This document shows, one piece after another, positions 3,040 to 61,727 of a DNA stretch of 64,000 nucleotides. The notes under the pieces were generated by a model, which was not told the origin of the DNA, ran no database searches, and worked only from the letters and a program-made list of their open reading frames with translations. How positions within the stretch are numbered: position 1 is the first letter of the stretch; each line of letters starts with the position of its first letter. Location: positions 1-64,000 of IMG/VR virus record IMGVR_UViG_3300037116_000062, one strand, 5' to 3'. A program made the position numbers and the translations under genes. This DNA is from a virus.

Positions 3040-3269
3040 AAACCCTCCCGCCACTTCGCAGTGGCACTTGAAATGAATGTCGCAATCTCCAGAAGGCAGA
3101 CGCTATCGAACAGCATGCCGCTCTCGGGGTGAAAGGTGTACTTCCGCCACGCTCCGCTGAATCGAACCATCCCCAGACGCTCGTGGGACTTGTTCTCGAC
3201 TGCGTAGGCGGGCATCTTCTTCCCCTCAGGGGTGCCCAAATCAAAGAAGTTCAGGAATGACGTAGACAT
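3036..3269 (-). CDS. Small protein of unknown function
   Basis: The 77-residue protein (MSTSFLNFFDLGTPEG...) is not recognised. The ATG at 3269 lies 8 nt after AGGAG and within the 3' end of the peptidase gene (29-nt overlap); its stop overlaps the next ATG. Its beta-rich middle with WRKYTFHPESGMLF may be a compact fold of its own. Confidence 0.55.
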   Translation of the reverse strand: MSTSFLNFFDLGTPEGKKMPAYAVENKSHERLGMVRFSGAWRKYTFHPESGMLFDSVCLLEIATFISSATAKWREGL

Positions 3270-3813
3270 GGATGCAACTCCTCTCTTCAATAACTAGAAT
3301 TCGGCCAATCCCTTTGTAATAGGCGAGCCGCCACAACAGCCACTTATACTGAGTTTTGGTCATCCTACGACTCAGGTCAAACGTCGTCCCTCGTTCATGC
3401 GTACTTGCTCGACTGCCGTCGACGTCCGTCGCATTGACGTTTCGTCGGCGGAGGTTGCGTTGGTCATCTCGGCTTCGAACTGCTGAATCCACGACCAGAC
3501 GTAATCTGGAATCACGGGCATCGGCAGATAGGGTATTGAAGAAGTCAACCGTCCCCCGTAATGCAACCCTTCGGTAGGCGGGCACTTTTCGGTTGCAGGG
3601 GATGCGGGTGAGCACTCCCCGTTCTGTGTCTGCTTCAATGTCTCGTCTGTCATCATACCTCTTCAGTCCTGCCGCGTCGGCACTTCTGTTCTCGGCGGGC
3701 ACGCTGTCCCTTGTTGCTGGGAACAGTTTGACGGGTTTGGCGTCTCGTGCCCACCCTGTCGATAACCCGGCCAGGATAATTAACACGGCCAGGATAGCCG
3801 CGCCAATCCTCAC
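3241..3813 (-). CDS. Secreted or anchored M15/DUF5715-like peptidase, candidate murein hydrolase
   Basis: The 190-residue protein has an N-terminal hydrophobic helix (residues 3-18, AILAVLIILAGLSTG) fitting a signal peptide or membrane anchor. Its C-terminal half resembles the VanY/M15-like or DUF5715 fold: LVVDSAVRS, then STHERGTTFDLS (H and D of the SxHxxGxxxD zinc motif) and a final HVYV in place of the usual HxH/HVH. Such enzymes cleave peptidoglycan cross-links in the periplasm, so a lysis or wall-processing role is inferred. The start is GTG with a 4-nt GTGA overlap to the preceding gene. The altered last histidine motif leaves activity uncertain. Confidence 0.65.
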   Translation of the reverse strand: MRIGAAILAVLIILAGLSTGWARDAKPVKLFPATRDSVPAENRSADAAGLKRYDDRRDIEADTERGVLTRIPCNRKVPAYRRVALRGTVDFFNTLSADARDSRLRLVVDSAVRSRDDQRNLRRRNVNATDVDGSRASTHERGTTFDLSRRMTKTQYKWLLWRLAYYKGIGRILVIEERSCIHVYVIPELL

Positions 3814-4361
3814 AGTGAGACGGCGACAACTGCGCGCCGAATGACGTCCAGTGCCTTCTCGGAGGTCGCGAACTGGGTTCGGAGCGACTTTATCACGTAT
3901 CGCAGATCATCCTGCTCCTTTTGGTACTCCAGCACTTCCTTCTGCGATTGCTCCAATGCCGCTTTGACATTGCTCAGACTTGCCTCCGCGGGCTTCTTGC
4001 GGTAATCGTTGAGTAGGGACTCCGCGCTCACGCGTAACACACCTTCCTGCTTGGCGATTTGCTGATATTGGCGCACTCGCCTGTTACAGAACTCCACTTC
4101 CTTGAGCAGGCTCTCATTCTGTGCCTTCAGATCGGCGATGAGTGCTTCCGTCGTGTTGCCCAAGGGCGTTCCACAATCATCTACGGGTGCGGGTGCCATG
4201 TCTTCGTACTTCTGATTCGTGCCGAGAACCTCTTCTAGGGAGATTTCATCGTCGCAGCCGTACCCAGCCTGCTGGCAACTGTCGCACACGTAGGGCAGGC
4301 ACACGCTGCACGCGGTCACTTCAACCTGATCTCCACACCCATTACATTCAATCTTTGTCAT
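3810..4361 (-). CDS. Zinc-finger plus coiled-coil protein
   Basis: The 183-residue protein starts with two CxxC-type pairs (CNGCG, CSVC, CDSC at residues 6-29), consistent with a treble-clef or rubredoxin-like zinc site. From about residue 70 it is a long, Glu/Gln/Lys-rich helix with heptad spacing to the end, a likely coiled coil. It ends in a GTGA overlap with the peptidase gene and begins inside the last codons of the GNAT gene. No specific function is recognised. Confidence 0.6.
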   Translation of the reverse strand: MTKIECNGCGDQVEVTACSVCLPYVCDSCQQAGYGCDDEISLEEVLGTNQKYEDMAPAPVDDCGTPLGNTTEALIADLKAQNESLLKEVEFCNRRVRQYQQIAKQEGVLRVSAESLLNDYRKKPAEASLSNVKAALEQSQKEVLEYQKEQDDLRYVIKSLRTQFATSEKALDVIRRAVVAVSL

Positions 4362-4791
4362 ACTTTCCTCCTCTTACGCCTCGGCGCATAAAAACCCCGT
4401 CCACATTGTTCGGGTAGTATCCCCGCGAAACCTTTTCTATCCGATATCCATTTTTCAAATATAACATTTGGGCGGGAGTGTTGTCAATCCTCGTGTTGAG
4501 GGTGATCTCGGGGAAGTTCCCGTGAACCTCATCTAACAGTTCCTGGGCATATCCGAGACGCCGAAAATCTTCTCCCACTGCCAGCGTCCAGAGATGGGGC
4601 TCTCCCTGCTTCAGTATGACAATAGCTAACCCTCTCGGCGAATAAATGCTGGGAACGAAAGTGTCATATGTTGTTGCATTGAACTCAAACACCCCGAACG
4701 ACGGCTGCTCTGCCTCACAGAAGCACGAGTTGTTGAGTTCGTGCAACTCCCGCAACAGGTCACCTGTGAATTGACCTTCTGTCAGTCTCAT
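4348..4791 (-). CDS. GNAT-family N-acetyltransferase
   Basis: The 147-residue protein has the acetyl-CoA pyrophosphate-binding signature LAVGEDFRRLGYAQELL at about 70-86 (R-x-x-G-x-A) and the downstream NTPAQMLYLKNGYRIE strand-helix typical of RimI-like GNATs. The family transfers an acetyl group from acetyl-CoA to an amine; the substrate here (host protein, small molecule or DNA-modification intermediate) cannot be read from the sequence. It overlaps both neighbours by about 4-14 nt in the leftward operon. Confidence 0.8.
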   Translation of the reverse strand: MRLTEGQFTGDLLRELHELNNSCFCEAEQPSFGVFEFNATTYDTFVPSIYSPRGLAIVILKQGEPHLWTLAVGEDFRRLGYAQELLDEVHGNFPEITLNTRIDNTPAQMLYLKNGYRIEKVSRGYYPNNVDGVFMRRGVRGGKYDKD

Positions 4792-6810: not shown

Positions 6811-8805
6811 TCATTTTTTATAATAAAACCCCTCCCACCCTTCAGCGGCAAGTATAAAACCCATTCCTTCCGCCCACTCAGGGGTCGTAGTCATACATTT
6901 CAATAGTACCTCAAGGTTGAAGGCGGAGTCAATGGGCACTTCCAACACTATCTCGTCGTGAATCGTCATAATCACAGTTCCGCCTGCTTTTTCGGCAAGT
7001 AGCATACCCGACAATAGGATGTCGCGCGCGATCGCCTGGACAACGTTTTCGCAGATGAGTCCGCCGTAAAGCCGCTTGATCTGCTTGCCCTTCTTGTCCC
7101 ACGCCTCATATGAGACTTGCTTGCGCTTCGGCCCGCCCCACGGGGGAGCCTCCATGCTCACCTTCGGATTGTGGTAGTGGATGCACCTGCCGCTGGGCAG
7201 CTTGATCTTGAGCACGAGCGGATTGCGCCCGTCGACTATGACACCTTTCACATACACGCAGATGTTGCAATCGGTCGCGGTGACGACGGCTTTGTTCAGC
7301 GCCTCCCAGTACGCAGGGATCTCACTATACTTCTCACGGAACGCGTTCACATACTTCTTGGACGTCGCCTCGTCGATTGTGAGCCCGAATGTGGCAGCGT
7401 AGTCGATGAACTTCTCCCAGCCCATTCCGAACCCGCAACCCAAGATGATGACCTTGCCGTTTGCGCGCTCTGCCTTCGTGATGTCCTTGTATAGCTTCTC
7501 CAACAGGAAGGCCATGATGTCCTTGTACAGATCCAGCCCGCTCGCGTACGCGCCCATCATCGTCTGGCAGCCCGCGAGGACCGCGAGAACGCGCGACTCG
7601 ATTTGCGCCAAATCGCCCGCTACTAGCTTGTGCCCTGGCGCGGCAGCGAACGCGCTGCGGATGGTGGATGCGACCAGACTCATTTGGCTGTTCTTGCTGT
7701 AGATCTTCTTGCCGTTGCGGATGGCCCTTGTGTAGGTGTCTAAGAATCGTGAGACGTCCTCATCGCTCTTGTACAGATTCTGCAACTGAACTCCGCGCCC
7801 CGCCCACCGCGCGGTGTGCGCGCCATGGTAGACGAACTGGTCACGCAGCCTGCCGTCCTCACCCATGAGTGAGAGGATCTTCTCCAGCTTCTTATATGCG
7901 GACCCGCCCAGCTTCACTTTCAGTTCTAGGATTTCGCGGGCTTCGCCTTTCAGGTAGGGCAACTTCAAAGCCTCTTCAACGTGCTCCGCGTCAAGCGAAT
8001 CGTACGGGTACTTCCTGTCGCGGAGCCACGGGCCGAGTTGCGCTCCTGAGTTCGGGTTCTCCAGTTCCGTGATCGCCTTCATCGCGTCTAAGATCTGATT
8101 CGACTCCGCTTCGGCCATCTTGGACGCATTGACCACGTACGGCTGGTCGATCCAAACGCCCGTCTCGTTCATCCGTTGGTCGAGCAGCCACGCGGCCTTC
8201 TCGCCCTCTGTGAATGGGCACTTGAGAGCGATCGCGGCATCATCGACATCCCGCTCCGCGATGACGTCCTGAATACAATACTGCTTGAACTCTTCCCACT
8301 TCTCGGGGTGGGTATTCCAATCCTTGAAGTAAAACTCGGGCGCGGTCGGGTCTTTCTTCAACACGCGTTTCATCTGTTTGGACAGAACGGAAACGATCTT
8401 CGTCAACCGATCGTCGCCGATCAGGTGCGTCTTCTGCTCGCTCACACCCAGCGCCTGCCCCGCGCGGTGCAGTCCGACTGGCAGCGACATGTTCGCGCAG
8501 GTGATGGACGGGTCGTACCACCGCTCTTGAGGAATGGTGATCCCGAGTTGGTACTGCAGGATGTCTTTTTCGAAGTTGTAGTTCCACGCGCACAGTTCCA
8601 CGTTCGGGTCCGCTAGAAGGGCGGCCAGCTTTGCGGGCATAGGTTCGCCAAGGCAGGGCAGCCACAACTGGGGGTGGTTGCGGTCGATCGCCCAAGCGAG
8701 CATCAGGACTTCCGTCAATTTGGACTTCGCGTACCGATCCAAGCCAACCTTTTTCAGGTCGAGCCGCGAACGAGTTTCGAAGTCTAACCATAGTCGTGTC
8801 TTCAT
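6811..8805 (-). CDS. Family A DNA polymerase with 3'-5' exonuclease
   Basis: The 664-residue enzyme is the phage replicative polymerase. An N-terminal DEDD exonuclease is visible from LDFET (7-11), AWNYNFEKD (about 73-81) and YCIQDV (about 176-181). The polymerase half has HTARWAGRGVQLQNL (about 330-344), motif A GDLAQIESR (397-405), motif B RANGKVIILGCGFGMG (447-462; K then the glycine-rich O-helix) and motif C IHDE (615-618). No 5'-3' exonuclease domain is present, as usual for phage pol A. The ATG at 8805 follows GGAGGCGGG; the longer upstream frame is part of the iteron region. Confidence 0.95.
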   Translation of the reverse strand: MKTRLWLDFETRSRLDLKKVGLDRYAKSKLTEVLMLAWAIDRNHPQLWLPCLGEPMPAKLAALLADPNVELCAWNYNFEKDILQYQLGITIPQERWYDPSITCANMSLPVGLHRAGQALGVSEQKTHLIGDDRLTKIVSVLSKQMKRVLKKDPTAPEFYFKDWNTHPEKWEEFKQYCIQDVIAERDVDDAAIALKCPFTEGEKAAWLLDQRMNETGVWIDQPYVVNASKMAEAESNQILDAMKAITELENPNSGAQLGPWLRDRKYPYDSLDAEHVEEALKLPYLKGEAREILELKVKLGGSAYKKLEKILSLMGEDGRLRDQFVYHGAHTARWAGRGVQLQNLYKSDEDVSRFLDTYTRAIRNGKKIYSKNSQMSLVASTIRSAFAAAPGHKLVAGDLAQIESRVLAVLAGCQTMMGAYASGLDLYKDIMAFLLEKLYKDITKAERANGKVIILGCGFGMGWEKFIDYAATFGLTIDEATSKKYVNAFREKYSEIPAYWEALNKAVVTATDCNICVYVKGVIVDGRNPLVLKIKLPSGRCIHYHNPKVSMEAPPWGGPKRKQVSYEAWDKKGKQIKRLYGGLICENVVQAIARDILLSGMLLAEKAGGTVIMTIHDEIVLEVPIDSAFNLEVLLKCMTTTPEWAEGMGFILAAEGWEGFYYKK

Positions 8806-16755: not shown

Positions 16756-17427
16756 ATGCCAAAGGTCTTAGTTGCCATATCTTCTTGTCAGAGTTATGAA
16801 GCATCTGGTCTGAATGACCCGATGCGCGAGACGTGGTTGACAGCCCTCCCCCAAGGCTGGGACTATAAGTTCTTCCACGGTCGCGGCGCACAGTCGAAGC
16901 ATGACGTCGTAGTACTTGACGTAGATGACGGGCTTGGCGGACTCACTGAGAAGGCGAAGGCAAAAGCGCGCTGGGCGATTGACAACGGATACGATTACAT
17001 CTTCTCCTGCTTCCCCGATACGTACGCGAACGCAGATCGTCTCGCGGCGAGCGGGTTTGAGAAGTTCGATTACCTCGGAAACGTATACAAGTTCCCGAAC
17101 GCGAACTCCAGTTTCTGTCAGGGCGGTCCTGGGTACTTCATGAGTCGCAAGTCTTGTGTGTATCTCGTAAACAATTCGGCCAGTTACCTGAACGACGATA
17201 CCTTCATCGGCGACACACTAAATCGCGCGGACATCCTGCGGTTCGACCACCGCGGCTTCACCACATGCGGCCCAGGTCCACTGAAGACAAATGACTCGAT
17301 CACGAACCACTTGAGCACGCAGCCCGGGGGGTTCACGGGGCACAACATGCGCGAGGAGCACGAGAGATGGCTAAAGTCTTTTACACATATTTGTGGCTCA
17401 GAGAAGACGGAACCCCCTACTATGTAG
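16756..17427 (+). CDS. GT31-like glycosyltransferase (paralogue 2)
   Basis: The 223-residue protein matches the plan of the genes at 12499 and 21928: MPKVLVAISSCQSYEASG, an R-ETWL segment, KAKARWAIDNGYDYIFSC and a GGPGYFMSRKSC acceptor-side motif. The metal motif is degenerate here (CFPDTYANADR where paralogues have DDD), so activity is uncertain. Its last 60 nt overlap the GIY-YIG gene, and the tail after about residue 203 is probably altered by that insertion. Confidence 0.6.
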   Translation: MPKVLVAISSCQSYEASGLNDPMRETWLTALPQGWDYKFFHGRGAQSKHDVVVLDVDDGLGGLTEKAKAKARWAIDNGYDYIFSCFPDTYANADRLAASGFEKFDYLGNVYKFPNANSSFCQGGPGYFMSRKSCVYLVNNSASYLNDDTFIGDTLNRADILRFDHRGFTTCGPGPLKTNDSITNHLSTQPGGFTGHNMREEHERWLKSFTHICGSEKTEPPTM

Positions 17428-17855
17428 GTAAAGGTTCTGGGAATAGGGGATTTACAAGCAAGAGACATAGGTTCAGACGCCCGCCCTGCGCCGAGCGTAT
17501 TGTTGCTCAGGAGTTTGTTTCAGAGAGGGATGCCCTCTTTGCCGAACAGTTGCTAATCGCCGTCTACGGAAGACAAGACCTCGGGACCGGGATATTGAGG
17601 AACCTAACAGATGGTGGAGACAACCCCCCTAGGGGCACCCCGTCCAGTTATGCTAAAGCGTCTCTGTCTCTACAAGGACGCCCCGGGGGTTTTAAGGGAC
17701 GCAGACATACTGAAGAGACGAGGGAAAAGATGCGCGCTGCTGCCGCTGCGATTGGCGCACGGAGGGGTCGCAATCGCGGTTTCCTTGTCTCCGAAGAGAC
17801 AAGAAAGAAACTGAGTGACCGAGCATGGCAACAACATCACCTGTTCGTATACTAG
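17367..17855 (+). CDS. GIY-YIG homing-type endonuclease 1
   Basis: The 162-residue protein starts with a GIY-YIG-like core, FYTYLWLREDGTPYYVGKG (5-23), with the conserved R and E further on (AERIVAQEF; LLIAVYG). The C-terminal GRRHTEETREKMR and LVSEETRKKLSD repeats are NUMOD3-like DNA-binding helices. It overlaps the upstream transferase by 61 nt and the downstream one by 31 nt, so it is wedged between them without its own spacer. It is a close relative of the gene at 20590. Confidence 0.85.
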   Translation: MAKVFYTYLWLREDGTPYYVGKGSGNRGFTSKRHRFRRPPCAERIVAQEFVSERDALFAEQLLIAVYGRQDLGTGILRNLTDGGDNPPRGTPSSYAKASLSLQGRPGGFKGRRHTEETREKMRAAAAAIGARRGRNRGFLVSEETRKKLSDRAWQQHHLFVY

Positions 17856-19363: not shown

Positions 19364-20602
19364 ATGGGGATGCCGCCCTACGCATCAAATTTTAGCGAAG
19401 GGTTCATCCCAGGCGTCACCCCCGTCCTTTACTCGGGCCCCTACTGGGATCACCGCGAGTTGGAAATGGGGACGCAAGCGTTCCTCACGGGCAAGTGGCT
19501 CACGACAGGCGAGTACGTCGCCCGCTTTCAGAACAAGTTCGCCCAGCACTTTGGCGTGAAGTACGCGCACATGGTCAACTCGGGTAGTTCCGCGAATCTC
19601 GTGATGATCGCGGCGCTCAAGAAGCACATGGACTGGCAAGACGGAGATGAAGTCATCGTATCACCTGTTGGATTCCCGACAACGATTGCCCCACTTGTTC
19701 AGAACAATCTCAAGCCAGTTTTCGTCGACATCGAGATGAGCACGCTGAATTTCGACCTGAATTTGTTCAAATCGGCGATCACCCCAAAAACGGTAGCGAT
19801 TTTCGTATCGCCTGTTCTCGGCAACCCGCCGCACATGGACGAACTGAAGTCGATCGGCCTCCCCCTCATCGGGGACAATTGTGACAGCCTCGGCTCTAAG
19901 TGGAACGGGAAGTATCTCACTGAAGCCTACATCGCATGGAGCACTTCGTTCTACCCCGCCCACCACATTACGACGGGAGAGGGCGGAATGGTCTGCTCAG
20001 ACGACGCCGAACTCATGAAGACAGTGAAAAGCATGTCTTGGTGGGGCAGGGACTGCTACTGCGTGGGCGCAGCCAACCTTCTATCCTGCGGAACATGCGG
20101 CAAGCGTTTCGACAAGTGGATCGAGGGATCCGACTCTATCGTCGACCACAAATATCTGTTCACGAACATAGGCTATAACCTGAAACCGCTGGACATGCAG
20201 GGCGCAATCGGACTCGCGCAGATGGAGAAGATCGAGGAGATTGAACTCCTCCGCAGGAAGAACTTCCGCCAATTGGCCTGTCTGTTTGACATCCCAGGCG
20301 TGCGCGTGGCGACTTCCCATTCCCAAGCGGATGCATGTTGGTTCGGTGTTCCGATCATCTGCGATACCGCGGAGATCAAGAACAGCCTCGTCGCGCACTT
20401 GGAAGCGAACAAGATTCAGACTCGTCCGTACTTCGCGGGCAACATCCTACGCCACCCAGGATACAAAGCCTTGGGAGACGCGAGCATGTTCCCCAACGCA
20501 AATCAGGTGTGGGACAAAGTGTTCTTCATCGGTTGTCCGCCTCACTACGACAACACCATCATAGACTACATCGAGGGGGTTGTCGGGTCATGGAAAATCT
20601 AA
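19364..20602 (+). CDS. rfbH: RfbH/ColD-type PLP-dependent sugar 3-dehydratase
   Basis: The 412-residue protein is a DegT-fold enzyme in which the usual Schiff-base lysine is replaced by histidine (SFYPAHH, H200/H201), the hallmark of 3-dehydratases that remove the C3 hydroxyl of 4-keto-6-deoxy sugars. D171 is the expected cofactor contact. Cysteines C173, C231 and C233 are spaced C-X57-C-X1-C, as I recall for the [2Fe-2S] ligands of CDP-sugar E1/RfbH, with C242 or C245 as fourth; this favours the CDP-linked enzyme over cluster-free ColD. The next sugar gene, at 21087, fits the following reduction step. A GIY-YIG gene overlaps its last 13 nt. Confidence 0.85.
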   Translation: MGMPPYASNFSEGFIPGVTPVLYSGPYWDHRELEMGTQAFLTGKWLTTGEYVARFQNKFAQHFGVKYAHMVNSGSSANLVMIAALKKHMDWQDGDEVIVSPVGFPTTIAPLVQNNLKPVFVDIEMSTLNFDLNLFKSAITPKTVAIFVSPVLGNPPHMDELKSIGLPLIGDNCDSLGSKWNGKYLTEAYIAWSTSFYPAHHITTGEGGMVCSDDAELMKTVKSMSWWGRDCYCVGAANLLSCGTCGKRFDKWIEGSDSIVDHKYLFTNIGYNLKPLDMQGAIGLAQMEKIEEIELLRRKNFRQLACLFDIPGVRVATSHSQADACWFGVPIICDTAEIKNSLVAHLEANKIQTRPYFAGNILRHPGYKALGDASMFPNANQVWDKVFFIGCPPHYDNTIIDYIEGVVGSWKI

Positions 20603-21090
20603 CTTTTTACACATATTTGTGGCTCCGAGAAGATGGCACTCCCTACTATGTCGGGAAGGGAACAAAAAAGCGTGCATGGCGTAAAGGGAGCCCTCCGTCA
20701 GAACGTGTCCTAATCCAAGAGTTCCCTTCTGAAGAAGACGCCTTCCTGTCTGAAAGATTTCTTATCGCCCTGTACGGGCGTGAAGATTTGTTAGAAGGAT
20801 GTCTCATAAATCTTACAGATGGTGGCGATAATCCGCCCCTAAGTACCCCCGCAAGTAGGGCGAAGGCGGCAGCGACGACAAGAGGTCAGAAGCGACCTCC
20901 GCTTACGGCGGAATGGAGACGAAAAATATCCGAAGCTAAGAAAGGCAAGCCCCGTCCGTGGGAAGTGCTGACTGAATCGTCAAAGAAAAAGATTTCGATG
21001 GCCTTACGAGGTCGAACAGGTATTCCAAGAAGTCATAAAGGAAAACCTTGGTCTATCGCCCGACGAGCCGCTTATGAGAAGATGATATGA
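20590..21090 (+). CDS. GIY-YIG homing-type endonuclease 2
   Basis: The 166-residue protein has FYTYLWLREDGTPYYVGKG (6-24) nearly identical in DNA and protein to the gene at 17367, followed by ERVLIQEF and RFLIALYG, then helical repeats (WRRKISEAKKGK, SSKKKISMALRGR). Its ATG lies 13 nt inside the RfbH gene end and its TGA overlaps the next ATG, so the insertion is seamless. Confidence 0.85.
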   Translation: MENLTFYTYLWLREDGTPYYVGKGTKKRAWRKGSPPSERVLIQEFPSEEDAFLSERFLIALYGREDLLEGCLINLTDGGDNPPLSTPASRAKAAATTRGQKRPPLTAEWRRKISEAKKGKPRPWEVLTESSKKKISMALRGRTGIPRSHKGKPWSIARRAAYEKMI

Positions 21091-27495: not shown

Positions 27496-27553
27496 TTACC
27501 CGATGGAGGGCGAGGCTAGTCCCTCGCCCAACTCTAGACTAGGAGAGATTATG
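27493..27553 (+). promoter_or_regulatory. Candidate RBS-sequestering pseudoknot, HNH gene at 27551
   Basis: After TAATTACCCGA (27493-27503) an 8-bp stem GGGCGAGG/CCTCGCCC (27508-27515, 27522-27529) exposes loop CTAGTC. That loop is complementary to GACTAG (27537-27542), which overlaps the Shine-Dalgarno AGGAGAG. The same layout with different bases occurs at 36442-36511, so base pairing appears conserved. Confidence 0.6.
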
Positions 27554-28015
27554 CCTTACAAAACCAAAGAAGAAAAAGCTGCGTATGACCATGCCCGAGT
27601 AGCACAAAATCGAGAAGAAAAATCTGCTTATGATAAAAACTATCGTAGCACTCACCGCACGGAAAAAGACGCGTACAGTCGCAAACATCATCTTCAGAAG
27701 AACTTCAATCTGTCTTTTCAAAAATTTTTTGAGATGCTTACTGCACAGGATAATAAATGTGCCCTTTGTAGTGACTTATTCGAAGTAACTCCCGCTATCG
27801 ACCACGACCATTCGTGTTGCTCAGGAGTTAAGAGTTGCGGTAAATGTGTCAGGGGATTGCTCTGTCACCGTTGCAATACCGCTCTTGGAAGTTTCAGAGA
27901 TTCTCCAGAACTTCTTCGCAAAGCAGCAGATTACATAGAAAGAAAACGAAACGAGAATTTCAATGTCCCCATTTCGCTCGAAAGCACAAGCGGGCTACCT
28001 ACACAGTCATCCTGA
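27551..28015 (+). CDS. HNH endonuclease, endonuclease VII-like (1)
   Basis: The 154-residue protein has a helical Lys/Arg-rich N-terminus and the recombination-endonuclease-VII core: CALC, AIDHDHSCCSG, CGKCVRGLLCHRCNTALGSFRDSPELLRKAADYI. This gives a beta-beta-alpha metal nuclease with paired zinc cysteines, common in free-standing phage homing endonucleases. The ATG at 27551 follows AGGAGAG. Its last 53 nt overlap the next gene, so it was inserted tightly. Confidence 0.87.
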   Translation: MPYKTKEEKAAYDHARVAQNREEKSAYDKNYRSTHRTEKDAYSRKHHLQKNFNLSFQKFFEMLTAQDNKCALCSDLFEVTPAIDHDHSCCSGVKSCGKCVRGLLCHRCNTALGSFRDSPELLRKAADYIERKRNENFNVPISLESTSGLPTQSS

Positions 28016-36441: not shown

Positions 36442-36511
36442 TAATTACCCGAAGCCAGAGCGACCAGCACCTAGAATGCTGGTCGCTCGCTCTTTTCTAG
36501 GAGAGAATATG
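36442..36511 (+). promoter_or_regulatory. Terminator/pseudoknot element before HNH gene at 36509
   Basis: TAATTACCCGA (36442-36452) precedes a perfect 12-bp stem (36458-36469 with 36477-36488). Its 7-nt loop CCTAGAA is fully complementary to TTCTAGG (36495-36501), which overlaps the Shine-Dalgarno AGGAGAG. The stem is also followed by CTCTTTTCT, so it can act as a terminator of the capsid/decoration transcript. Confidence 0.65.
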
Positions 36512-36928
36512 CCCCGAAACACTGAAGCAGGAAGGCTCGCGTACAACAAATACATGCGAGAATATCGAAAGCGCCCCGAACAAGCCGCTAAAGAAACCGC
36601 ACGAAAAGCGGCTTGGATAGCGGCAAACCCAGAGAACGCGGAGAAACACCGTTTGAGCAGGTTTCGCGCCGCGAGAAGGGCCAGATGGGGTAACCCAGAA
36701 GAGTACGCCGCACGTCTCGCTAAACAGAATGGTTTGTGTGCGCTCTGTGGCGAACCTTTTGACGACACTAAGTTAGGCAGCCCTGTTCAAGATCACGACC
36801 ACGATACTGAAGAACTAAGAGAATTTTTGCACTGCCGTTGTAACCTTGCGATAGCAAATCTGCTGGATAGCCCTAGCGGATGTCGCAAAGCAGCGGAGTA
36901 TTTAGAGAAGCACGGGAGGAGAGGATGA
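36509..36928 (+). CDS. HNH endonuclease, endonuclease VII-like (2)
   Basis: The 139-residue protein has an Arg/Lys-rich helical N-terminus (AYNKYMREYRKRPEQAAKE) and the core CALCGEPFDD, QDHDHDTEELREFLHCRCNLAIANLLDSPSGCRKAAEYL. The ATG at 36509 follows AGGAGAGAAT. Its stop overlaps the start of a tiny membrane protein, again a seamless insertion. Confidence 0.85.
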   Translation: MPRNTEAGRLAYNKYMREYRKRPEQAAKETARKAAWIAANPENAEKHRLSRFRAARRARWGNPEEYAARLAKQNGLCALCGEPFDDTKLGSPVQDHDHDTEELREFLHCRCNLAIANLLDSPSGCRKAAEYLEKHGRRG

Positions 36929-37472: not shown

Positions 37473-37667
37473 ATGAGAATTCATTTCGAGAGCAAGGTCC
37501 AGTGGCAGAAAAGATTCACGGGCACTGCCGTAGTCGGCGTATTTCTTATGGTATACGAAGGTCAACCGTCTATCGCGGACCCCGCGGGCATAGGCCTAAA
37601 AGGATTCAAGATAGGGGCTAGTGTCGGTTTCGGCACACTCTCTTGGGAAGTGAAATGTGCCAACTAA
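37473..37667 (+). CDS. Small protein of unknown function
   Basis: The 64-residue protein (MRIHFESKVQWQKRFTG...) has a hydrophobic stretch around 18-30 and a Gly-rich end. ATG 37473 follows CGGAGGAGCA. It overlaps the next gene by 11 nt. Not recognised. Confidence 0.5.
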   Translation: MRIHFESKVQWQKRFTGTAVVGVFLMVYEGQPSIADPAGIGLKGFKIGASVGFGTLSWEVKCAN

Positions 37668-38343
37668 CGCGGAGTACCTGGAGCGTTGGGAAAACGCCGC
37701 GCCAACCGCAGTAGTCAGCGACACACCAGTAGAAGCCAAGCGCACGAACGGGGACAACGGACTCCAGAGTTACATGGACGACCGCGAAGACCCCGCACTG
37801 CTGGAAGCCATCGCGGAGTACGCCGAACGAATCAGCGATGCAAAGCCCACTCAGGAAACTCTTGAGACGTACGCCGAGCGCAAAGAATACAACGACAACG
37901 TCGCCCGAGAATACCAGTGGGTGACCCCCGATGAGTACGCAGACGGCGGCGCTCGCATCGGAAGGATCATGCACTCATCTGCGTTCATCATCCGCCTTCA
38001 GCGGGCGGGAGTGAAGTGCTGGTATCGTAGGCATCCACAGCCGGGGAAGATGACTCTCGTTGTCCAACCGAAGCAAGCGACTCTACCGCCCGAAGTGGGC
38101 TGCTGGGTTCAGGGCGGCTTCATGCCTGAACTGAGCATCATGCGATTCGATGATCACGGAGTTCCAACCACGGAGAAGAACCGCGGCTGGCGAACTTGTC
38201 TGTTGCAACTGATCCTCAAGAGTCACATCAGCCAGCAAGTGGCTGACGAAGTTTTCGGAAAGCCCCCAACCACGGAGGCGTTCCACCGATACAACAACAC
38301 CCTCCGAGTATTTCGGGATCAGGGTGGAAGACTAGCAAGTTAA
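37657..38343 (+). CDS. Protein of unknown function
   Basis: The 228-residue protein has an acidic N-terminal half (YMDDREDPALLEAIAEYAER) and a more compact C-terminal half with Trp/Cys residues (GVKCWYRRHPQPGKMTLVVQ; VGCWVQGGFMPEL). No family is recognised; a minor virion or head-tail protein is possible from context. The start is GTG 37657. Confidence 0.55.
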   Translation: MPTNAEYLERWENAAPTAVVSDTPVEAKRTNGDNGLQSYMDDREDPALLEAIAEYAERISDAKPTQETLETYAERKEYNDNVAREYQWVTPDEYADGGARIGRIMHSSAFIIRLQRAGVKCWYRRHPQPGKMTLVVQPKQATLPPEVGCWVQGGFMPELSIMRFDDHGVPTTEKNRGWRTCLLQLILKSHISQQVADEVFGKPPTTEAFHRYNNTLRVFRDQGGRLAS

Positions 38344-42272: not shown

Positions 42273-43313
42273 ATGCCCGCAACTAAATGCGTACTAACTG
42301 GCGGGGCCTTTCAGGACGCCGAAGGGAATGTCTTGGCGAACGGTTATCTGACGATGACTCTGTCCCAGGACTCTTCCGTATCTGGCGTTGGGAACATTGC
42401 CGCGGGGATTACGATTACCATCACTTTGGACACGAACGGAAACGTTGCAGGCAGTCCTGCGCAAGCAGTCTGGGGCAATGACGTTCTCTCGGGGAACACA
42501 TTCTATAGTGTTACGGGATACACACTCGCGGGCCAACCCGCCTACGGTCCCAATAATCAGCAAGTCGTAGGCAGCACTTTCAATGTAGGCACGTGGGTTC
42601 CAAATCAAGTCATCTCGTGGAGCCCTTCTGTCCAATCGACTCTGCTGGAGACGAACGGGACAAAGAACGGTTCGCAGGCTACGCTGAATCTCGCGGCAGG
42701 GGCGAACATCACCCTCGCAGATAATGGAAGCGGCACGATTACGATTGCCGCTGCAGCAGGCGGGAGCAGCTTCAGTGTCACCAATCAAGGCTTCTTCATC
42801 GCTTCAGGCATGACGGACCTCGCCTCAGCTTTCGTGGGTACTTTCATCGCCCCGATAACCGACTACAGTGCTAACGAGGTGATGGTCAACCAGTTCGTCC
42901 TACAGTCGGCGTGGACGCTCTCCAGCGTATCTTACCAGCTAACCACGACCAGTTCTGGCGGGTCTAATTTCAGCTTCGGCATATATAGCGCGGCTGGCGT
43001 GAAACTCATTGATAGTGGCGCGTTCGACGGCACCAGCAGCGCTGTCCAGACCCTATCATTCACCCCGGTCACTCTTCCCGCGGGCGTGTACTACTTCGCC
43101 GCGAGCGCAACTGACCTCACTATGCGTGGTATCGCAATGCAAACCGCCAACCCCGCGGTTATGCTGGCAACCATCAGCACTTCTTACCCATACATCGCAA
43201 CCGCGGCGAACGCCACCTCAGGGGGTGTTATGCCTGCCACCCTCGGCACGTTGACCGCGATCCTTACCGCGGCAAGCTGGGAAGGTATCCCGCTTTGTAT
43301 CTGGAAGGTCTAA
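42273..43313 (+). CDS. Tail fibre or surface protein
   Basis: The 346-residue protein starts with GGAFQDAEGNVLANGYLTMT, related to the preceding small protein, then continues in Gly/Ser/Thr/Asn-rich beta structure (LAAGANITLADNGSGTITI) typical of fibres, with a compact C-terminal domain (about 195-346). A receptor-binding role is inferred. Confidence 0.6.
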   Translation: MPATKCVLTGGAFQDAEGNVLANGYLTMTLSQDSSVSGVGNIAAGITITITLDTNGNVAGSPAQAVWGNDVLSGNTFYSVTGYTLAGQPAYGPNNQQVVGSTFNVGTWVPNQVISWSPSVQSTLLETNGTKNGSQATLNLAAGANITLADNGSGTITIAAAAGGSSFSVTNQGFFIASGMTDLASAFVGTFIAPITDYSANEVMVNQFVLQSAWTLSSVSYQLTTTSSGGSNFSFGIYSAAGVKLIDSGAFDGTSSAVQTLSFTPVTLPAGVYYFAASATDLTMRGIAMQTANPAVMLATISTSYPYIATAANATSGGVMPATLGTLTAILTAASWEGIPLCIWKV

Positions 43314-43326
43314 GGAAAGGTTCACC

Positions 43327-43836
43327 ATGAGTCAGATTGCAGCGAATGGCGGCCAGCCGCAGGTGGGGGATGTATTCGGGAAATGGACTCTCCTGTCTAA
43401 AACGGGACGAGGCTCCTACGTTTGTCGCTGCGAGTGTGGTATAGAAAAGCCTATTGGCTCTACTGAATTACTTCGTGGGGCTAGAAAGAAAGGGTGTCGT
43501 CGTTGTCAGATTGGTTTTTCAAAAGAGACTGCTCGTAGGAACGAGCTATATGGCAGCTATGTCCTGAATGCAAAAAAGAGGAAGTTGGATTTTGCGCTCT
43601 CTCGTCAAGAAGCAGAATTGATGTTTGTATCCACATGCCACTATTGTGGGAAACTCCCCTCTCCCAACAATGGGATTGACCGAATGGATAACTCTATAGG
43701 GTATTTTCCAACGAACTGTGTGGCATGCTGTGGTTTGTGTAATCGCATAAAGAATGTCTTGGGTTATGAGGAGTTTTTTGCTCACCTAAAGTCGATTCTG
43801 GAATTCCGGGGGTATCATGTCACAAATCGCGGCTAA
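43327..43836 (+). CDS. HNH endonuclease carrying the copied start of the downstream tail gene
   Basis: The 169-residue protein has CRCECG and CRRCQ cysteines and an HNH core CHYCGKLPSPNNGIDRMDNS, then NCVACCGLCNRIKNVLGYEEF. Its first 12 residues, MSQIAANGGQPQ, are identical to those of the tail protein starting at 43817, and the nuclease proper begins after them. It therefore appears to have captured the tail gene's original translation start, while the tail gene has a second, recoded start inside the nuclease 3' end (20-nt overlap). Confidence 0.85.
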   Translation: MSQIAANGGQPQVGDVFGKWTLLSKTGRGSYVCRCECGIEKPIGSTELLRGARKKGCRRCQIGFSKETARRNELYGSYVLNAKKRKLDFALSRQEAELMFVSTCHYCGKLPSPNNGIDRMDNSIGYFPTNCVACCGLCNRIKNVLGYEEFFAHLKSILEFRGYHVTNRG

Positions 43837-46800
43837 TGGTGGGCAACCTCAGAAGTCCCCTCGCTACGCGCCAATCTACTCGGGAAGGTTCTTTAACGGT
43901 CTGAACACAAATCGGTCCCCACTGCGTGCTGCGAGTGCGAATCACATTTACGAGAAGTTCTACAGCGACTCCTCAGGTGACGCACTCATCGCGGGTCTGA
44001 ATCTGGAAGTGTCGAACAGGCTGACCCTTATCCGTCGCCCAGGCAATCCGATTTACGATAACACGCACACGTACAACGACCCGTGGCACTTTGACGAGTT
44101 CCGCGTCAACAAGTTGCAGGATGACGTCCTCGGCTCCGTGCAAGAGCAAATCTTCACGCTCGTTGACGAGAGCGCGGGAAGCCAATACGGCGCGGGAACC
44201 GTTTACTCACTGACCCCGACTTTCGAACGCGGCGGCGACGCGACTGATGGCGGACTCAGTTTTGTGAAGGGCGCAGGCGCAGGCCAGACGTACTTCCAAG
44301 CAGTAGGCAACGAACTCTATTTTGGCGACGGCGTCGAGAACAAGAAATGGCTGCAGTCGATAATCAACCGCAATGCCGTAGGTGCGAATGGTTTCTACCT
44401 CCAAGGACCGCCCAACAATCCGTCGGGCGCGTACCCGTTTGGGACGTACCTCCTCGATTGGAATACGGGCAATCCCCAAGAGTTCATCGGAATCACGATC
44501 GGCACGGTGACGAATGTCGCCATGTCAGCGAACGTGCTCACCCTCACAGTAGACCTCGCAACCCCCTCAGCGGGGCTAACCGTTCCGAACGCTGATGTAA
44601 ACGATTACGTCGTGAACACGCCCTTCCAGTTGTGGGGCTTCACAGACGCGGACAACTTGTGGTTGAACGGGATTACGATTTTCCTTCAAGCGGCGTACAC
44701 CCACACCAACTCCTCGTCCACGACTTTCGTCGCGCAGGTGAATCACGCGACGAACTACACCCAGGCAGTCACATCCCCGAATTTGACTTACATCATCCAA
44801 TCGGGAACCGCGCCCGTAGTCGCACAACTCAGTACGACCACTATACCCACTTACAACACGCAAGTTCCGACTGCCGCGAATCTGTACCAGAGCGGACTGA
44901 CCCTAGACGGCAACACGGTCTGGGCAAATCGCGGAACTCCGTCCACGGGTGGATACAACCAGAATCCGAACGTAGAAAACTGGGGAATCCAACCCCCGAC
45001 AGGGAAACCGACATACTCCGTTTCGGGGTCTGAGCAGTCGTGGCAGAAGAACACCTATTACTCCCCTGCGTCCGTCTATGTTGGCCCAGGTGGGTATCTC
45101 TGGCAAATTTCCAAGGCGGGCACCACGGGAACGGGAACAGTGTTCCCGAATCCTCCCCCCGCCGTCGGCATAGTGCCTGCTACGTCCCAACAGGCTCTAA
45201 TCACGAATGTCTATATCTCAGGGAATGTCGCCTACTTCACGACGGCCACTCAATCTCTCGCGACGGGTAACATCGTGAATATTAGTGACCTCTCCGTCGC
45301 AACCTTCTTGAACGGAGAACAGCTTACTGTTCTTTCGGGGGCGACTCCTACATCTTTCTCGGCGACCGTATCCACTGTGTCTTACCCGACCACGCCCGAC
45401 TCAGGTCTTGTGACTCTGCCAGGGTATGTGTTACAGGACGGAACCGCGCAATGGACGGCGATCCAAACTCCTGCATCTCTCATCTGGGAACCGAATACGC
45501 ATTACAACATCGGGTCTTTCATCATAGCGACGACGTCCGCTGGACCGCAACTATTCCAACTCAGTGTGAATACCACATCCCTTGCGTTGAGCACCGCGAT
45601 TACCGCGGGGTGGATTGCCCAATCCAGCAGTTGGCAAGGCGCAGTTAGTCTATGGAATACAAACGACCCGAACGCTACCACACACGGTGGTGGTGGGCCT
45701 GTATTCTCTGCATTCCCAGGCGGCCAAACTGGACCCGTCCCCTCCCTTGATTGGAATGGCGTAGGCCCCGGCGGAACGATTATCGTTAACACGCTGAATG
45801 GCGCGGGCGCAATCATCCCGCCTCAAGTCCCTCTCCCGGGCAGCCCCGCTAATGGGCCATTCTGGGCAGCCGCGACAGGTTCTATGTTCATCCCAGCCCC
45901 GGGATCTTACGTCTTCACGATCACAACCGAAGACGCAGGGTTCTTCTCCTTCCAGACGACAGCTAATGCGTCTGGCGGAATCGCCTCTGTGTCGGGGAAC
46001 ACTTTCATTCCCCAAACAGGTGGGGTCGCACGACAGGTCACGGTAGTAGATGGGTACGGTAGCCTAACAGGAGGCACGTCCCTTTGTGGCACGGACAACA
46101 CTGGCGGGACAGGCACCACAGGGATGTCCTGCACATGGACATTCACGAAGGCGGGGAACTACAACTACGAAGTGGACTACGGACACAGGACGGGGACTCC
46201 CCGTTACATGACGCTCAAGTATGGCACGGCGCTCGAAATCCCGCCCTACCCGAGCGAGTCAGGAGCAACCGCGCCCCTATGGACACCTTTCACCACCACA
46301 GGGATGCAGTATGTGAACGGTCAGATTGTATGGCCCGCGACCGCGACCGACGGACAGTACACGTGGAACAACCTTGGCCCGATGACGGATTACGTCTATG
46401 TGGCCAACACTCCATACACGCTGCCCGCGAGCACGATTATCGATTCAAACGGCAACCAAGAAGGCGTGGCCGAAACGGGCATTTCGGATACGACTCAACC
46501 AACATGGCCCACGGCAATCAACACGGTTACCCCCGACACGGGATATCCGACCCTTCAGTGGCTTAATGAAGGCCCACTGGCCTCGTCAACCACTCCTGGC
46601 ACGATCGCAGCGACGTCCGTGCAGGGCTACCTTTATTGGATTGCCCTTGTGAACACGCTGGACAATTCTGTGTCAAACCTCGGCCCTGTGTCGTTGTCGA
46701 CGGGTTCGTTCATCAATGGGGTGGTATCCTTCAGCCCAGGTTCAGGATTGCCCACGGTAAATGGGGTGGTCACTGTTGACCCACAAGACGACTATGTCGC

Positions 46801-48082
46801 CATCTTCAGAACTGCGGATGGGTTTACGACGCCTCTGCTCATCCCAGGGTTTGTCACCTCGCCGTACACGGTTCCGCTGACTCAGTACATCCGAAATGGT
46901 TTCGTGGACAACTTCCCCGACACTGAATTGAATGACCTCGTGCAGGGTGCTGAAGCAGGCGAGAACACTCCCCCAATTGTGGGAGCAATCAATCTCACAT
47001 ATGCACTCAACCGCATCTGGTACAGCCTTGGAAACACCGTCTATTACACGACGGGCCCGCAAGCCCCAAGTGGGAACGGAATTGATGGCGCGTCCCCGAC
47101 TAACCTCTCTCCTTGTCCCTCACAGGTCAAGAGATTGGTGCCGACGGCGATTGGTATGCTGGTGTTCACCATCAGCGATATCTATATCATCCCAGGAAAC
47201 GGTACGACTCAAAGCCCCATCCAACCCGCGCTCCCGTATCTCACGGGCGTCGGCTTGGGAAATTACAACGGACTCGACATCAACGGTGGCATCATGGGCT
47301 TCTTCACGACTGACAAACAGTTCGTGATATTCGACCCGAGTGCCGGATTGAGTTACGTGGGTTATAACATCGGCGACCAACTCCGCCTCAACAACGGCAC
47401 GGCTGGTCAGTCATGGAACCCATCCACCGCATATGTCGCGTGGTATATCAACGGCGAAGACCAAGCGTGGTTCCTTGGTGACGCTGTCAATGGCTGGTAC
47501 AAACTCATCGCAACGCCTGCCCCCGAAAGCGGGAACGGCGTAGTCGCATGGAGCCCCTTCGGGACTATCGCAGGCGGATCCGTGAGTGCGATCAAGGCAA
47601 CGGAAGTCAGCCCTGGAGTCCACAGGCTGCTTGTTGGACAAACAAGTGCAACGGGTAGGATCCTGAATCGTGACCTGTCCGCAACCACGGACGCGGGCTC
47701 GACAGGAATCAACGGAACCACTTACCCCGCGTACGGAGTAATCGGATCCATCGTGTTGGCGCAACCTGGGCAAATCGCCAAGGTCGCGTTCATTACGACG
47801 GTCTGTGTTCGCACAGGAAGCCCGCCAATCCTTGGCGTTCTTCTGGACGAGGCTCTACCGTATTACACGGGCAGCTTCGACGTCCTGAAACGCTGGACGA
47901 ACGATCCCCCGAACCTGCCACAAGGTAAATCATTCTACAGGCAGCGATTTTACCTTTGTGAAGACGAGGAGACTTCGGCGTACTGCATGGACATGCAGAT
48001 CATGGTGCAGTTTCCAACCGAAGCCGCGCTCAACGAACTGCAGACGCTCACCGTGTTCGGTGCCTACGAAGTTGAGATGTAA
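43817..48082 (+). CDS. Large tail protein, probable nozzle (tail tubular B-like)
   Basis: The 1421-residue protein begins MSQIAANGGQPQ then PRYAPIYSGRFFNGLNTNRS, the N-terminal pattern of podovirus nozzle-type proteins, and is dominated by beta strands with regular Gly/Asn turns, as in a beta-propeller tube protein. The central part (about 250-900) is an extended Ser/Thr/Pro-rich insertion, larger than typical nozzle proteins (about 800 residues). No enzyme motif is seen. Its 12 N-terminal codons are a synonymous copy of those at 43327. Confidence 0.65.
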   Translation: MSQIAANGGQPQKSPRYAPIYSGRFFNGLNTNRSPLRAASANHIYEKFYSDSSGDALIAGLNLEVSNRLTLIRRPGNPIYDNTHTYNDPWHFDEFRVNKLQDDVLGSVQEQIFTLVDESAGSQYGAGTVYSLTPTFERGGDATDGGLSFVKGAGAGQTYFQAVGNELYFGDGVENKKWLQSIINRNAVGANGFYLQGPPNNPSGAYPFGTYLLDWNTGNPQEFIGITIGTVTNVAMSANVLTLTVDLATPSAGLTVPNADVNDYVVNTPFQLWGFTDADNLWLNGITIFLQAAYTHTNSSSTTFVAQVNHATNYTQAVTSPNLTYIIQSGTAPVVAQLSTTTIPTYNTQVPTAANLYQSGLTLDGNTVWANRGTPSTGGYNQNPNVENWGIQPPTGKPTYSVSGSEQSWQKNTYYSPASVYVGPGGYLWQISKAGTTGTGTVFPNPPPAVGIVPATSQQALITNVYISGNVAYFTTATQSLATGNIVNISDLSVATFLNGEQLTVLSGATPTSFSATVSTVSYPTTPDSGLVTLPGYVLQDGTAQWTAIQTPASLIWEPNTHYNIGSFIIATTSAGPQLFQLSVNTTSLALSTAITAGWIAQSSSWQGAVSLWNTNDPNATTHGGGGPVFSAFPGGQTGPVPSLDWNGVGPGGTIIVNTLNGAGAIIPPQVPLPGSPANGPFWAAATGSMFIPAPGSYVFTITTEDAGFFSFQTTANASGGIASVSGNTFIPQTGGVARQVTVVDGYGSLTGGTSLCGTDNTGGTGTTGMSCTWTFTKAGNYNYEVDYGHRTGTPRYMTLKYGTALEIPPYPSESGATAPLWTPFTTTGMQYVNGQIVWPATATDGQYTWNNLGPMTDYVYVANTPYTLPASTIIDSNGNQEGVAETGISDTTQPTWPTAINTVTPDTGYPTLQWLNEGPLASSTTPGTIAATSVQGYLYWIALVNTLDNSVSNLGPVSLSTGSFINGVVSFSPGSGLPTVNGVVTVDPQDDYVAIFRTADGFTTPLLIPGFVTSPYTVPLTQYIRNGFVDNFPDTELNDLVQGAEAGENTPPIVGAINLTYALNRIWYSLGNTVYYTTGPQAPSGNGIDGASPTNLSPCPSQVKRLVPTAIGMLVFTISDIYIIPGNGTTQSPIQPALPYLTGVGLGNYNGLDINGGIMGFFTTDKQFVIFDPSAGLSYVGYNIGDQLRLNNGTAGQSWNPSTAYVAWYINGEDQAWFLGDAVNGWYKLIATPAPESGNGVVAWSPFGTIAGGSVSAIKATEVSPGVHRLLVGQTSATGRILNRDLSATTDAGSTGINGTTYPAYGVIGSIVLAQPGQIAKVAFITTVCVRTGSPPILGVLLDEALPYYTGSFDVLKRWTNDPPNLPQGKSFYRQRFYLCEDEETSAYCMDMQIMVQFPTEAALNELQTLTVFGAYEVEM

Positions 48083-48158: not shown

Positions 48159-48752
48159 ATGGAGAACAATCATCCACGATTCCGCCTTCAAGGGCGGGAG
48201 CAAGAGGTTATCGCCGCCTATCAAGGCGGCAGTTCAACTCCAACGATAGGGAAACTCTTTGGGGTAAGCCACGCTTCCATTCTGCAGGTGTTGAGGAAAT
48301 TCAACGTCCCTCGACGCACGCGAAGTGAAGCCAACATACAAACGCATTGCAAGAGGGGACACCCAATGGTGGAGGGCAACCTCTACTACATGAAGGGCGG
48401 GGTACGGAGTTGTTTGACTTGTCGCAAGGCAAATGGCAGACGTAGTCGATTTGGACTACGGCCTGAGGATATCGAAAGACGACTTCAGCAGCAGGAAGGG
48501 AAATGTGCTGTTTGTAGAAAGACTTTGAAAATCCCCCAAGCAGACCACGATCATTCCTGTTGTCCTGCGAAAACTAAAACTTGTGGAAAGTGTGTGCGAG
48601 ATTTGTTGTGCAGGAACTGCAACCTCGCTGTCGGGAACGTGAAGGACGATATCTCAATAGCAGAATCCCTCGTCGCTTACCTGAAGAAATGGAAAACCCC
48701 CAATGTCCACCCTAGCAGAACGACTGAAAACGCAATCGCTGCCGGGGTTTGA
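48159..48752 (+). CDS. HTH-HNH endonuclease, endonuclease VII-like (3)
   Basis: The 197-residue protein starts with a helix-turn-helix (about 16-50: EVIAAYQGGSSTPTIGKLFG, then VSHASILQVLRKF), a CKRG...CLTCRK linker and an endonuclease VII core CAVC, QADHDHSCCPAKTKTCGKCV, LLCRNCNLAVG. It has its own promoter and translation switch. Its last 50 nt overlap the next gene. Confidence 0.88.
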   Translation: MENNHPRFRLQGREQEVIAAYQGGSSTPTIGKLFGVSHASILQVLRKFNVPRRTRSEANIQTHCKRGHPMVEGNLYYMKGGVRSCLTCRKANGRRSRFGLRPEDIERRLQQQEGKCAVCRKTLKIPQADHDHSCCPAKTKTCGKCVRDLLCRNCNLAVGNVKDDISIAESLVAYLKKWKTPNVHPSRTTENAIAAGV

Positions 48753-49708: not shown

Positions 49709-49716
49709 GAGGAGTG

Positions 49717-50139
49717 ATGGGTAGAGATAAAGAACATTGGAACGCTTACATGCGGGAGTTTCGCAAGACCCATCCCAGGACCGCGGAGAAACGCGCGGCT
49801 CAAAATGCACGTAATAGCCGCAACCAACAGAATGAAAAGACAACCCCCGAAGGGCGGCTCAGGGTGAAGAACCGCTACTTTCTTCGGGAGCACGGGATTA
49901 CCCTAGAGCAGAGAAATGCCATCATTGTAGAACAGGACAATCTCTGCTTAATTTGTGGGCGTCTTTTAGGAGACGACAACATGGGGGCGCTCTCTCCTGT
50001 TGTCGACCACAGCCATCTCACAGGCAAACGTCGAGGCATACTACATCGAGTTTGCAATTCCGCCATAGGGTTGCTGGAAGATAGCCCTGATTTGCTCAGG
50101 CGTGCTGCTGACTACTTGGAGAAATCACAGTGTCCATAA
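49717..50139 (+). CDS. HNH endonuclease, endonuclease VII-like (4)
   Basis: The 140-residue protein has the usual Lys/Arg helical N-terminus and the core CLICGRLLGDDN, VVDHSHLTGKRRGILHRVCN, SAIGLLEDSPDLLRRAADYL. ATG 49717 follows GGAGGAGTG. Its C-terminal codons supply the GGAG and overlap the GTG start of the next gene. Confidence 0.86.
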   Translation: MGRDKEHWNAYMREFRKTHPRTAEKRAAQNARNSRNQQNEKTTPEGRLRVKNRYFLREHGITLEQRNAIIVEQDNLCLICGRLLGDDNMGALSPVVDHSHLTGKRRGILHRVCNSAIGLLEDSPDLLRRAADYLEKSQCP

Positions 50140-61199: not shown

Positions 61200-61727
61200 G
61201 TGTTCTACGCGTACTTGTGGCTCAGATACGACGGCACCCCTTACTACGTCGGCAAGAGCCACGATGGGAAGAACAGTCGTGCGTTTAAGAGCGTTGGGCA
61301 TCACGTTCACAGACCGTCAGAAGAGTCTAGGATAATCGTTCAACACTACGACTCCGAAGACGAAGCGTTCGCCGCGGAGAAGTTCTTGATCGCGTTTTAC
61401 GGCAGGGCGGACTTAGGAGAAGGTTGCCTGAGAAACCTCACGGACGGCGGGGAGGGTACGACAGGCGCAATCCGCACGGAGCAGTGGAAACAGAACATCT
61501 CCAAGGGGTTGACGGGCAAGAAGAGAACTGGGCCTCAATACCAACGTACTGAGGAGCATCGTCGGCAACTTCGGGAGAGAATGAAATCGGGAGATGCAGC
61601 TAAGGCAGGACGCATAGGGGGTAGACGTATGGTAGAGAATCTAAAAGGTAGGTTTACCTTAGAGCAACGGCAAGCATGGTCTAAAAAAGTGCATGCAGCC
61701 CGTTGGGGGAAGGTGTCAAATTCTTAA
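61200..61727 (+). CDS. GIY-YIG homing-type endonuclease 3
   Basis: The 175-residue protein has the core FYAYLWLRYDGTPYYVGKS (2-20), ESRIIVQHY and KFLIAFYGRADLGEGCLRNL, then helical repeats (EQWKQNISKGLTGKK; EEHRRQLRERMKSG). The start is GTG 61200, after AGGAGGAAGA; TCCTG upstream can pair with CAGGA over this site. Its last 35 nt overlap the following hydrolase gene. Confidence 0.85.
   Translation: MFYAYLWLRYDGTPYYVGKSHDGKNSRAFKSVGHHVHRPSEESRIIVQHYDSEDEAFAAEKFLIAFYGRADLGEGCLRNLTDGGEGTTGAIRTEQWKQNISKGLTGKKRTGPQYQRTEEHRRQLRERMKSGDAAKAGRIGGRRMVENLKGRFTLEQRQAWSKKVHAARWGKVSNS

Follow-up and report, generated by a model that had tools for sequence, protein, structure and literature searches.

Comparison with uninterrupted relatives shows, at the level of sequence, that an HNH endonuclease gene of a soil-type phage has taken over for its own expression the ribosome-binding site and the first 12 codons of a large tail-module gene, and that the latter now begins with a synonymously altered version of the same codons. 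On balance, we favour reading the locus as a free-standing HNH homing cassette that supplies the invaded gene with a synonymously altered start resistant to the nuclease. A more far-reaching proposition, which we put forward tentatively, is that such cassettes carry a built-in rescue. This would be a 5' end of the invaded essential gene that was rewritten by synonymous changes only and selected as invisible to the nuclease, the native start being used by the nuclease itself. They would then represent a natural home-and-rescue drive with at least two origins in one phage group. The window analysed here is the stretch of 64,000 nucleotides at positions 1 to 64,000 of the IMG/VR virus record IMGVR_UViG_3300037116_000062 (70,119 bases in all).

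Two reading frames with one N-terminus

The features of the locus are listed in Table 1. The HNH ORF and the 1421-aa gene overlap by 20 nt and have the same 12 N-terminal residues (MSQIAANGGQPQ), encoded by ATG AGT CAG ATT GCA GCG AAT GGC GGC CAG CCG CAG in the HNH ORF (copy 1) and by ATG TCA CAA ATC GCG GCT AAT GGT GGG CAA CCT CAG in the tail gene (copy 2). Nine of the 12 codons differ, every difference being synonymous, which confirms the counts and the placing of both ORFs given in an earlier note on this DNA. At the nucleotide level 25 of the 36 positions are identical and the longest common run is 5 nt, while the codon identity of the two copies (2/11, against 4.4 expected at random, P=0.11) is not significantly below the random expectation. 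Among 63,181 comparisons of adjacent gene starts (1.9 Mb) there was no other 12-aa match save one tandem duplication at a contig end, so that a chance origin of the shared residues is excluded. The stretch 43817-43836 doubles as the coding sequence of the HNH C-terminus with its TAA stop. This stop is formed within the altered codons GCT AAT; the ancestral GCG AAT gives no such stop.

Table 1. Features of the HNH endonuclease locus and of the start of the adjoining tail-module gene.
Feature	Position	Strand	Basis or remarks
Ribosome-binding region native to the tail gene (AAGGAAAGG), which now precedes the HNH ORF	43297..43326	+	Position and type as in uninterrupted relatives; SD duplex -7.8 kcal/mol
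HNH ORF	43327-43836	+	169 aa
Copy 1: tail-gene codons 1-12 with the ancestral codon set, captured and joined in frame to the HNH body	43327..43362	+	52/105 codon matches, 11 relatives
HNH endonuclease body and stop; Zn-ribbon-like N-terminal half, HNH motif	43363..43836	+	phrog_1035 8.6e-13, phrog_3118 7.7e-12; homologues begin here
HNH/PacI-like catalytic region, C104-x2-C107 ... GIDRMDNSIGYFPTN ... C-x2-CNRIK, intact	43636..43752	+	Alignments to the family and to PacI (3ldy)
Putative new ribosome-binding-like site for the tail gene, CCGGGGG, within the HNH 3' end	43806..43812	+	Predicted duplex -10.0 kcal/mol
Large tail-module structural gene	43817-48082	+	1421 aa; ordinary apart from the altered tract; relatives in IMG/VR and in Tunturiibacter phage Tunturi_3
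Copy 2: tail-gene codons 1-12, recoded	43817..43852	+	20/105 codon matches to relatives
Altered tract beyond copy 2, from codon 13 to roughly codon 26	43853..43894	+	Nucleotide and codon identity to relatives

Relatives of the 1421-aa gene were collected from IMG/VR by protein and by a degenerate DNA pattern encoding the N-terminal peptide, and all the close ones are metagenome contigs. The gene is uninterrupted in 11 of 11 distinct IMG/VR relatives, so that the HNH gene is an optional occupant of the site; a twelfth uninterrupted relative is a genome contig. In the IMG/VR relatives the gene follows another ORF and a GAAAGG/AAGGAG-type ribosome site, the same site that is found ahead of the HNH ORF in the window. 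When only codons for the same amino acid are compared, copy 1 matches the relatives at 52/105 and copy 2 at 20/105. The codons and the ribosome site shared with the relatives belong to the HNH copy; insertion of the nuclease was therefore behind codon 12, and the start that it now uses is the original one of the gene. The earlier note had proposed this insertion point and had regarded the tail copy as the recoded one; both proposals hold, and the ancestral codon set, which it had left to be settled by uninterrupted homologues, is that of the HNH copy.

The designation of the invaded gene as a tail gene is based on its gene neighbourhood, since the AlphaFold model of the C-terminal region was unusable (mean pLDDT 38.8) and was set aside. 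The structural proteins tested had no PHROG match, and the Tunturi_3 relative is annotated as a head decoration protein and lies beside tail-fibre genes. The phage group is distantly related to the Tunturiibacter phage Tunturi_3, a relationship that suggests acidobacterial hosts.

The HNH endonuclease

The PHROG matches, the family alignment and the alignment to PacI (GVDRSDSFEGY..N..CNRIK) all indicate an intact HNH (beta-beta-alpha metal) motif; a Pfam search gave no match for the protein. The HNH body is foreign in composition (G+C 45.6%, versus 55.3% for the window). Eight HNH homologues in other phages start approximately at the residue that corresponds to codon 13 (IGDVFGRLTV, TGQRYGRWTV etc.), and the codon for V13 of the window protein, GTG, is possibly the former HNH start. 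None of the eight carries MSQIAANGGQPQ; the earlier note had named HNH homologues with this N-terminus but no tail gene beside them as the observation that would speak against its reading.

Extent of the altered tract

The altered tract outruns the 12 duplicated codons and ends at about codon 26, a feature that was overlooked in the earlier note. Codon identity of the tail gene to its relatives, for the same amino acids, rises from 0.19 (codons 2-12) through 0.27 (codons 13-24) to 0.45 (codons 25-36), the values of other phages being 0.33-0.50 and 0.42-0.55 for the first two intervals. Nucleotide identity is 0.62 in nt 37-78 (0.69-0.76 in other phages) and 0.75 past nt 78. Over codons 6-26 the window phage has a codon identity of 0.28 to its close relatives, versus 0.39-0.51 in the other phages, and alone among the 12 has a higher value (0.34) with 13 distant relatives than within its own group; over codons 27-40 its value (0.46) is the highest among the 12. 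This low identity within the tract, ordinary afterwards, shows that a short tract of about codons 2-26 was exchanged or rewritten. The peptide is unchanged across the duplicated codons and beyond them stays near that of the relatives, the clearest residue change being R16 (codon CGC) in place of the K16 of the group; R16/CGC is present in distant relatives.

The earlier note had found the synonymous divergence of the two copies striking. It is unusual but not unique, as 3.7% (380/10,392) of the identical-aa 12-codon stretches of ordinary orthologs in the same phage group share two codons or fewer, which places the divergence of copy 1 and copy 2 at the level of distant orthologs. The unusual features are that both versions adjoin each other, the asymmetry between them and the sharp end of the tract. 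The codons of copy 2 were absent from all the phages sampled (IMG/VR gene starts and distant relatives), and a donor search in the genome collection yielded nothing beyond a relative with the gene uninterrupted (L044) and a match apparently due to chance (L043).

A second start capture

The IMG/VR contig 3300036790_000034 (L001), from a related phage, has an HNH gene of a different, Endo VII-like subfamily (3228-3605) that begins with MALAT, as does another structural-module gene at 3574-4518. Here the HNH gene has taken five codons from the structural gene together with its native start site; the ortholog in another phage (L040) carries no insertion. The sequence preceding the L040 gene aligns with the region ahead of the L001 HNH gene (score 24) and does not align with the new region ahead of the L001 structural gene (score -15). 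The duplicated five codons are identical at 13/15 nt, and the altered part comprises about 50 codons. Within codons 1-50 only 9/45 codons match at 96% amino acid identity, versus 136/221 codons afterwards, where amino acid identity is about 88%; a likelihood changepoint falls at codon 54. The start of this pair is the most extreme among 483 ortholog pairs, and its 9 matches are fewer than the 16.0 expected from random synonymous choice (P=0.013). The GC3 of the tract is 0.46, against 0.66 for the remainder of the gene. In windows where codon identity is 0.22 or lower, the median amino acid identity is 0.62, so that amino acid differences would also be expected from a diverged donor. It is therefore this pair, and not the window locus, that offers the best evidence for synonymous change that would be due to selection and not to descent.

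Proposed mechanism and competing explanations

In the mechanism that we propose, an HNH cassette has inserted right where a structural gene begins and uses the ribosome site and first 12 codons of that gene; the HNH protein would then start with MSQIAANGGQPQV. The cassette would bring a replacement start, and the corresponding anatomy is present: a ribosome-like site within the 3' end of the HNH ORF, an ATG that overlaps the stop codon of this ORF, and ~26 altered codons. The nuclease would recognise the ancestral sequence across the insertion point, of which copy 1 would retain half a site and copy 2 none. The tail gene may be translated from the new site CCGGGGG, for which a duplex is predicted (Table 1), perhaps coupled to HNH termination, and the structural gene of an invaded genome would still work, which is also the case in engineered home-and-rescue drives. 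Because the peptide is kept and the ancestral DNA is gone over codons 2-26, the HNH enzyme probably cuts the uninterrupted allele at the insertion site and spares its own genome. A tract that outruns the duplication fits the expectation of a recognition site spanning the insertion point. In favour of the homing cassette we count the second cassette, with another HNH subfamily and in a related phage, that shows the same capture and alteration. Against it we count that a few changes suffice for resistance, so that the near-complete recoding exceeds the need, that there are only two cases of capture, that other genes next to HNH ORFs are not clearly recoded, that R16/CGC occurs in distant relatives, and that the codon identity of the two copies taken alone does not fall significantly below chance.

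The main rival, which we regard as unlikely although it deserves to be taken seriously, accepts the same capture and sees in the altered start the ordinary gene start of a diverged donor phage, acquired by co-conversion; the tract would then reflect descent and not selected recoding. Co-conversion of flanks is the rule in homing (PMC2988022), the 3.7% of ordinary ortholog windows given above are equally codon-diverged, and a phage with the same peptide and an uninterrupted gene (L032) differs from copy 1 at 7/11 codons. The occurrence of R16/CGC in distant clades is a possible hint of such an import at the window locus. It fits less well with the finding that no sampled phage has the copy-2 codons, and with the second case, where the tract is better conserved in amino acids than the rest of the protein while its codon choice is close to random; the protein of a diverged donor ought to differ as well.

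It appears very improbable that a simple duplication came with the insertion and that its two copies then diverged neutrally. Purifying selection on the tail peptide would indeed leave only synonymous differences, but the divergence is asymmetric (copy 1 keeps the codons of the family and copy 2 has lost them), the tract outruns the duplicated part, and over an equal time the amino acids of copy 1 would have drifted. Slightly less probable still is the idea, raised in the earlier note, that the recoding prevents recombination between the copies, which would delete the nuclease. The longest run that they have in common is, as mentioned, very short, but this idea cannot account for codons 13-26, which are altered though they are not duplicated, nor for L001, in which five barely altered codons are duplicated and some 50 are altered. 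We give least credence to the HNH gene lying within a group I intron or an intein, or to the junction being an assembly artefact. HNH genes are often found in introns and the record is a metagenome-derived virus contig; against this, a search of 42900-44300 with Rfam gave no match at E up to 1 and no intron RNA structure around the HNH ORF, the HNH ORF ends at a stop codon of its own, the tail gene begins separately in a different frame, both reading frames are intact, and an independent contig has the same anatomy.

Known systems and significance

Genomes that acquire free-standing homing genes are assumed to be resistant, as the cleavage sequence is replaced by the donor version (PMC12724721), and the notion that a carrier is protected by a differing sequence is well established (PMC12724721, PMC2988022). 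In anatomy, the closest precedent is a mirror image, the mobile endonuclease ORFs of fungal mitochondria (Allomyces atp6; Glomus atp6, atp9, cox2 and nad3; PMC3630166). There too, an endonuclease gene lies within a host gene together with a second, largely synonymously diverged copy of a gene end, and the host gene is usable. In the fungi, however, it is the 3' end that is involved, the native end is left downstream and partly unexpressed, and the divergence has been read as horizontal transfer, whereas the phage locus involves the 5' end, with the native fragment upstream and fused to the nuclease as its own start.

SegF, SegG, MobA and MobE of T4 and its relatives (PMC2988022) are likewise nucleases between or inside conserved phage genes, with resistance by a different target and co-conversion. 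They differ in lying between genes or splitting a gene, with cut sites that are often hundreds of bp away, and among the literature searched there was no nuclease of this type that took a gene start and rebuilt it synonymously. For T4 gene 60, next to MobA, a change in the target gene was also proposed to protect against the adjacent homing nuclease while the gene still works (PMC5009743), but the protection is by a 50-nt insert bypassed by ribosomes and not by synonymous change. F-CphI and the homing endonucleases with an Endo VII motif (PMC6083498) resemble our case as free-standing phage nucleases of related HNH/Endo VII families in which an accessory change blocks self-cleavage; there, resistance is by an intron and no start is captured. 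In its working, the proposed cassette resembles the engineered home-and-rescue and toxin-antidote drives (PMC8996256, PMC9968759), in which the cassette contains, besides the nuclease, a recoded part of the target gene, so that invaded alleles are functional and uncut. These drives are synthetic, CRISPR-based and made for insects, and have no relation of descent to the phage locus. A 5' version with start-site capture in a phage was not described in the literature searched, which covers part of the field. The locus appears to be a free-standing homing endonuclease with 5' start capture and, apparently, a natural counterpart of recoded rescue.

If the tract does block cutting, a selfish nuclease could invade the start of an essential gene cheaply, using the native start signal and supplying a resistant replacement, and recoded-rescue drives would have a natural precedent. 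The signature of a common N-terminal peptide in neighbouring genes, together with a short tract of normal protein and abnormal codons, would then locate the targets of homing nucleases without biochemistry. It would also call for caution with phage phylogenies built on the 5' ends of genes.

Survey of endonuclease neighbours

No further start capture was found among about 240 other HNH-like ORFs in the fetched viral loci, some of which overlap, nor did a scan of 191 loci give a further HNH capture. Two candidates (L183 and L159) were rejected because they are not HNH genes and a third (L170:584/1129) as a contig-end tandem duplication. The latter (L170:574-1560) is a near-perfect duplication of ~480 bp in structural genes, with a short deletion, and may be an assembly artefact. 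In L034, a 72-aa ORF without HNH motif (6977-7203) has its first 16 nt (ATGTCGGAGGAGACAT) and MSEET in common with the next gene at 7204, possibly a start capture by another kind of small gene.

As a class, the starts of genes adjoining HNH ORFs in the group are only slightly lower in codon identity (P=0.0013, the pairs not being independent). The MGNSS gene and gene 48703, both adjacent to HNH ORFs, are not clearly recoded, so altered starts accompany the capture of a start, not the presence of an HNH neighbour as such. The window contains seven more HNH or GIY-YIG endonuclease ORFs (17367-17855, ~20335-21090, 27503-28015, 36476-36928, 48159-48752, 49714-50139 and 61200-61727), most of which run over the start of the following gene by 4-53 nt and do not share its N-terminus. 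Finally, the MPTNxEYxxRW gene of the window (37657-38343), with no HNH gene adjoining, has a start codon identity to L003 and L040 of 0.08-0.13, versus 0.47-0.48, which is a possible footprint of a lost element.
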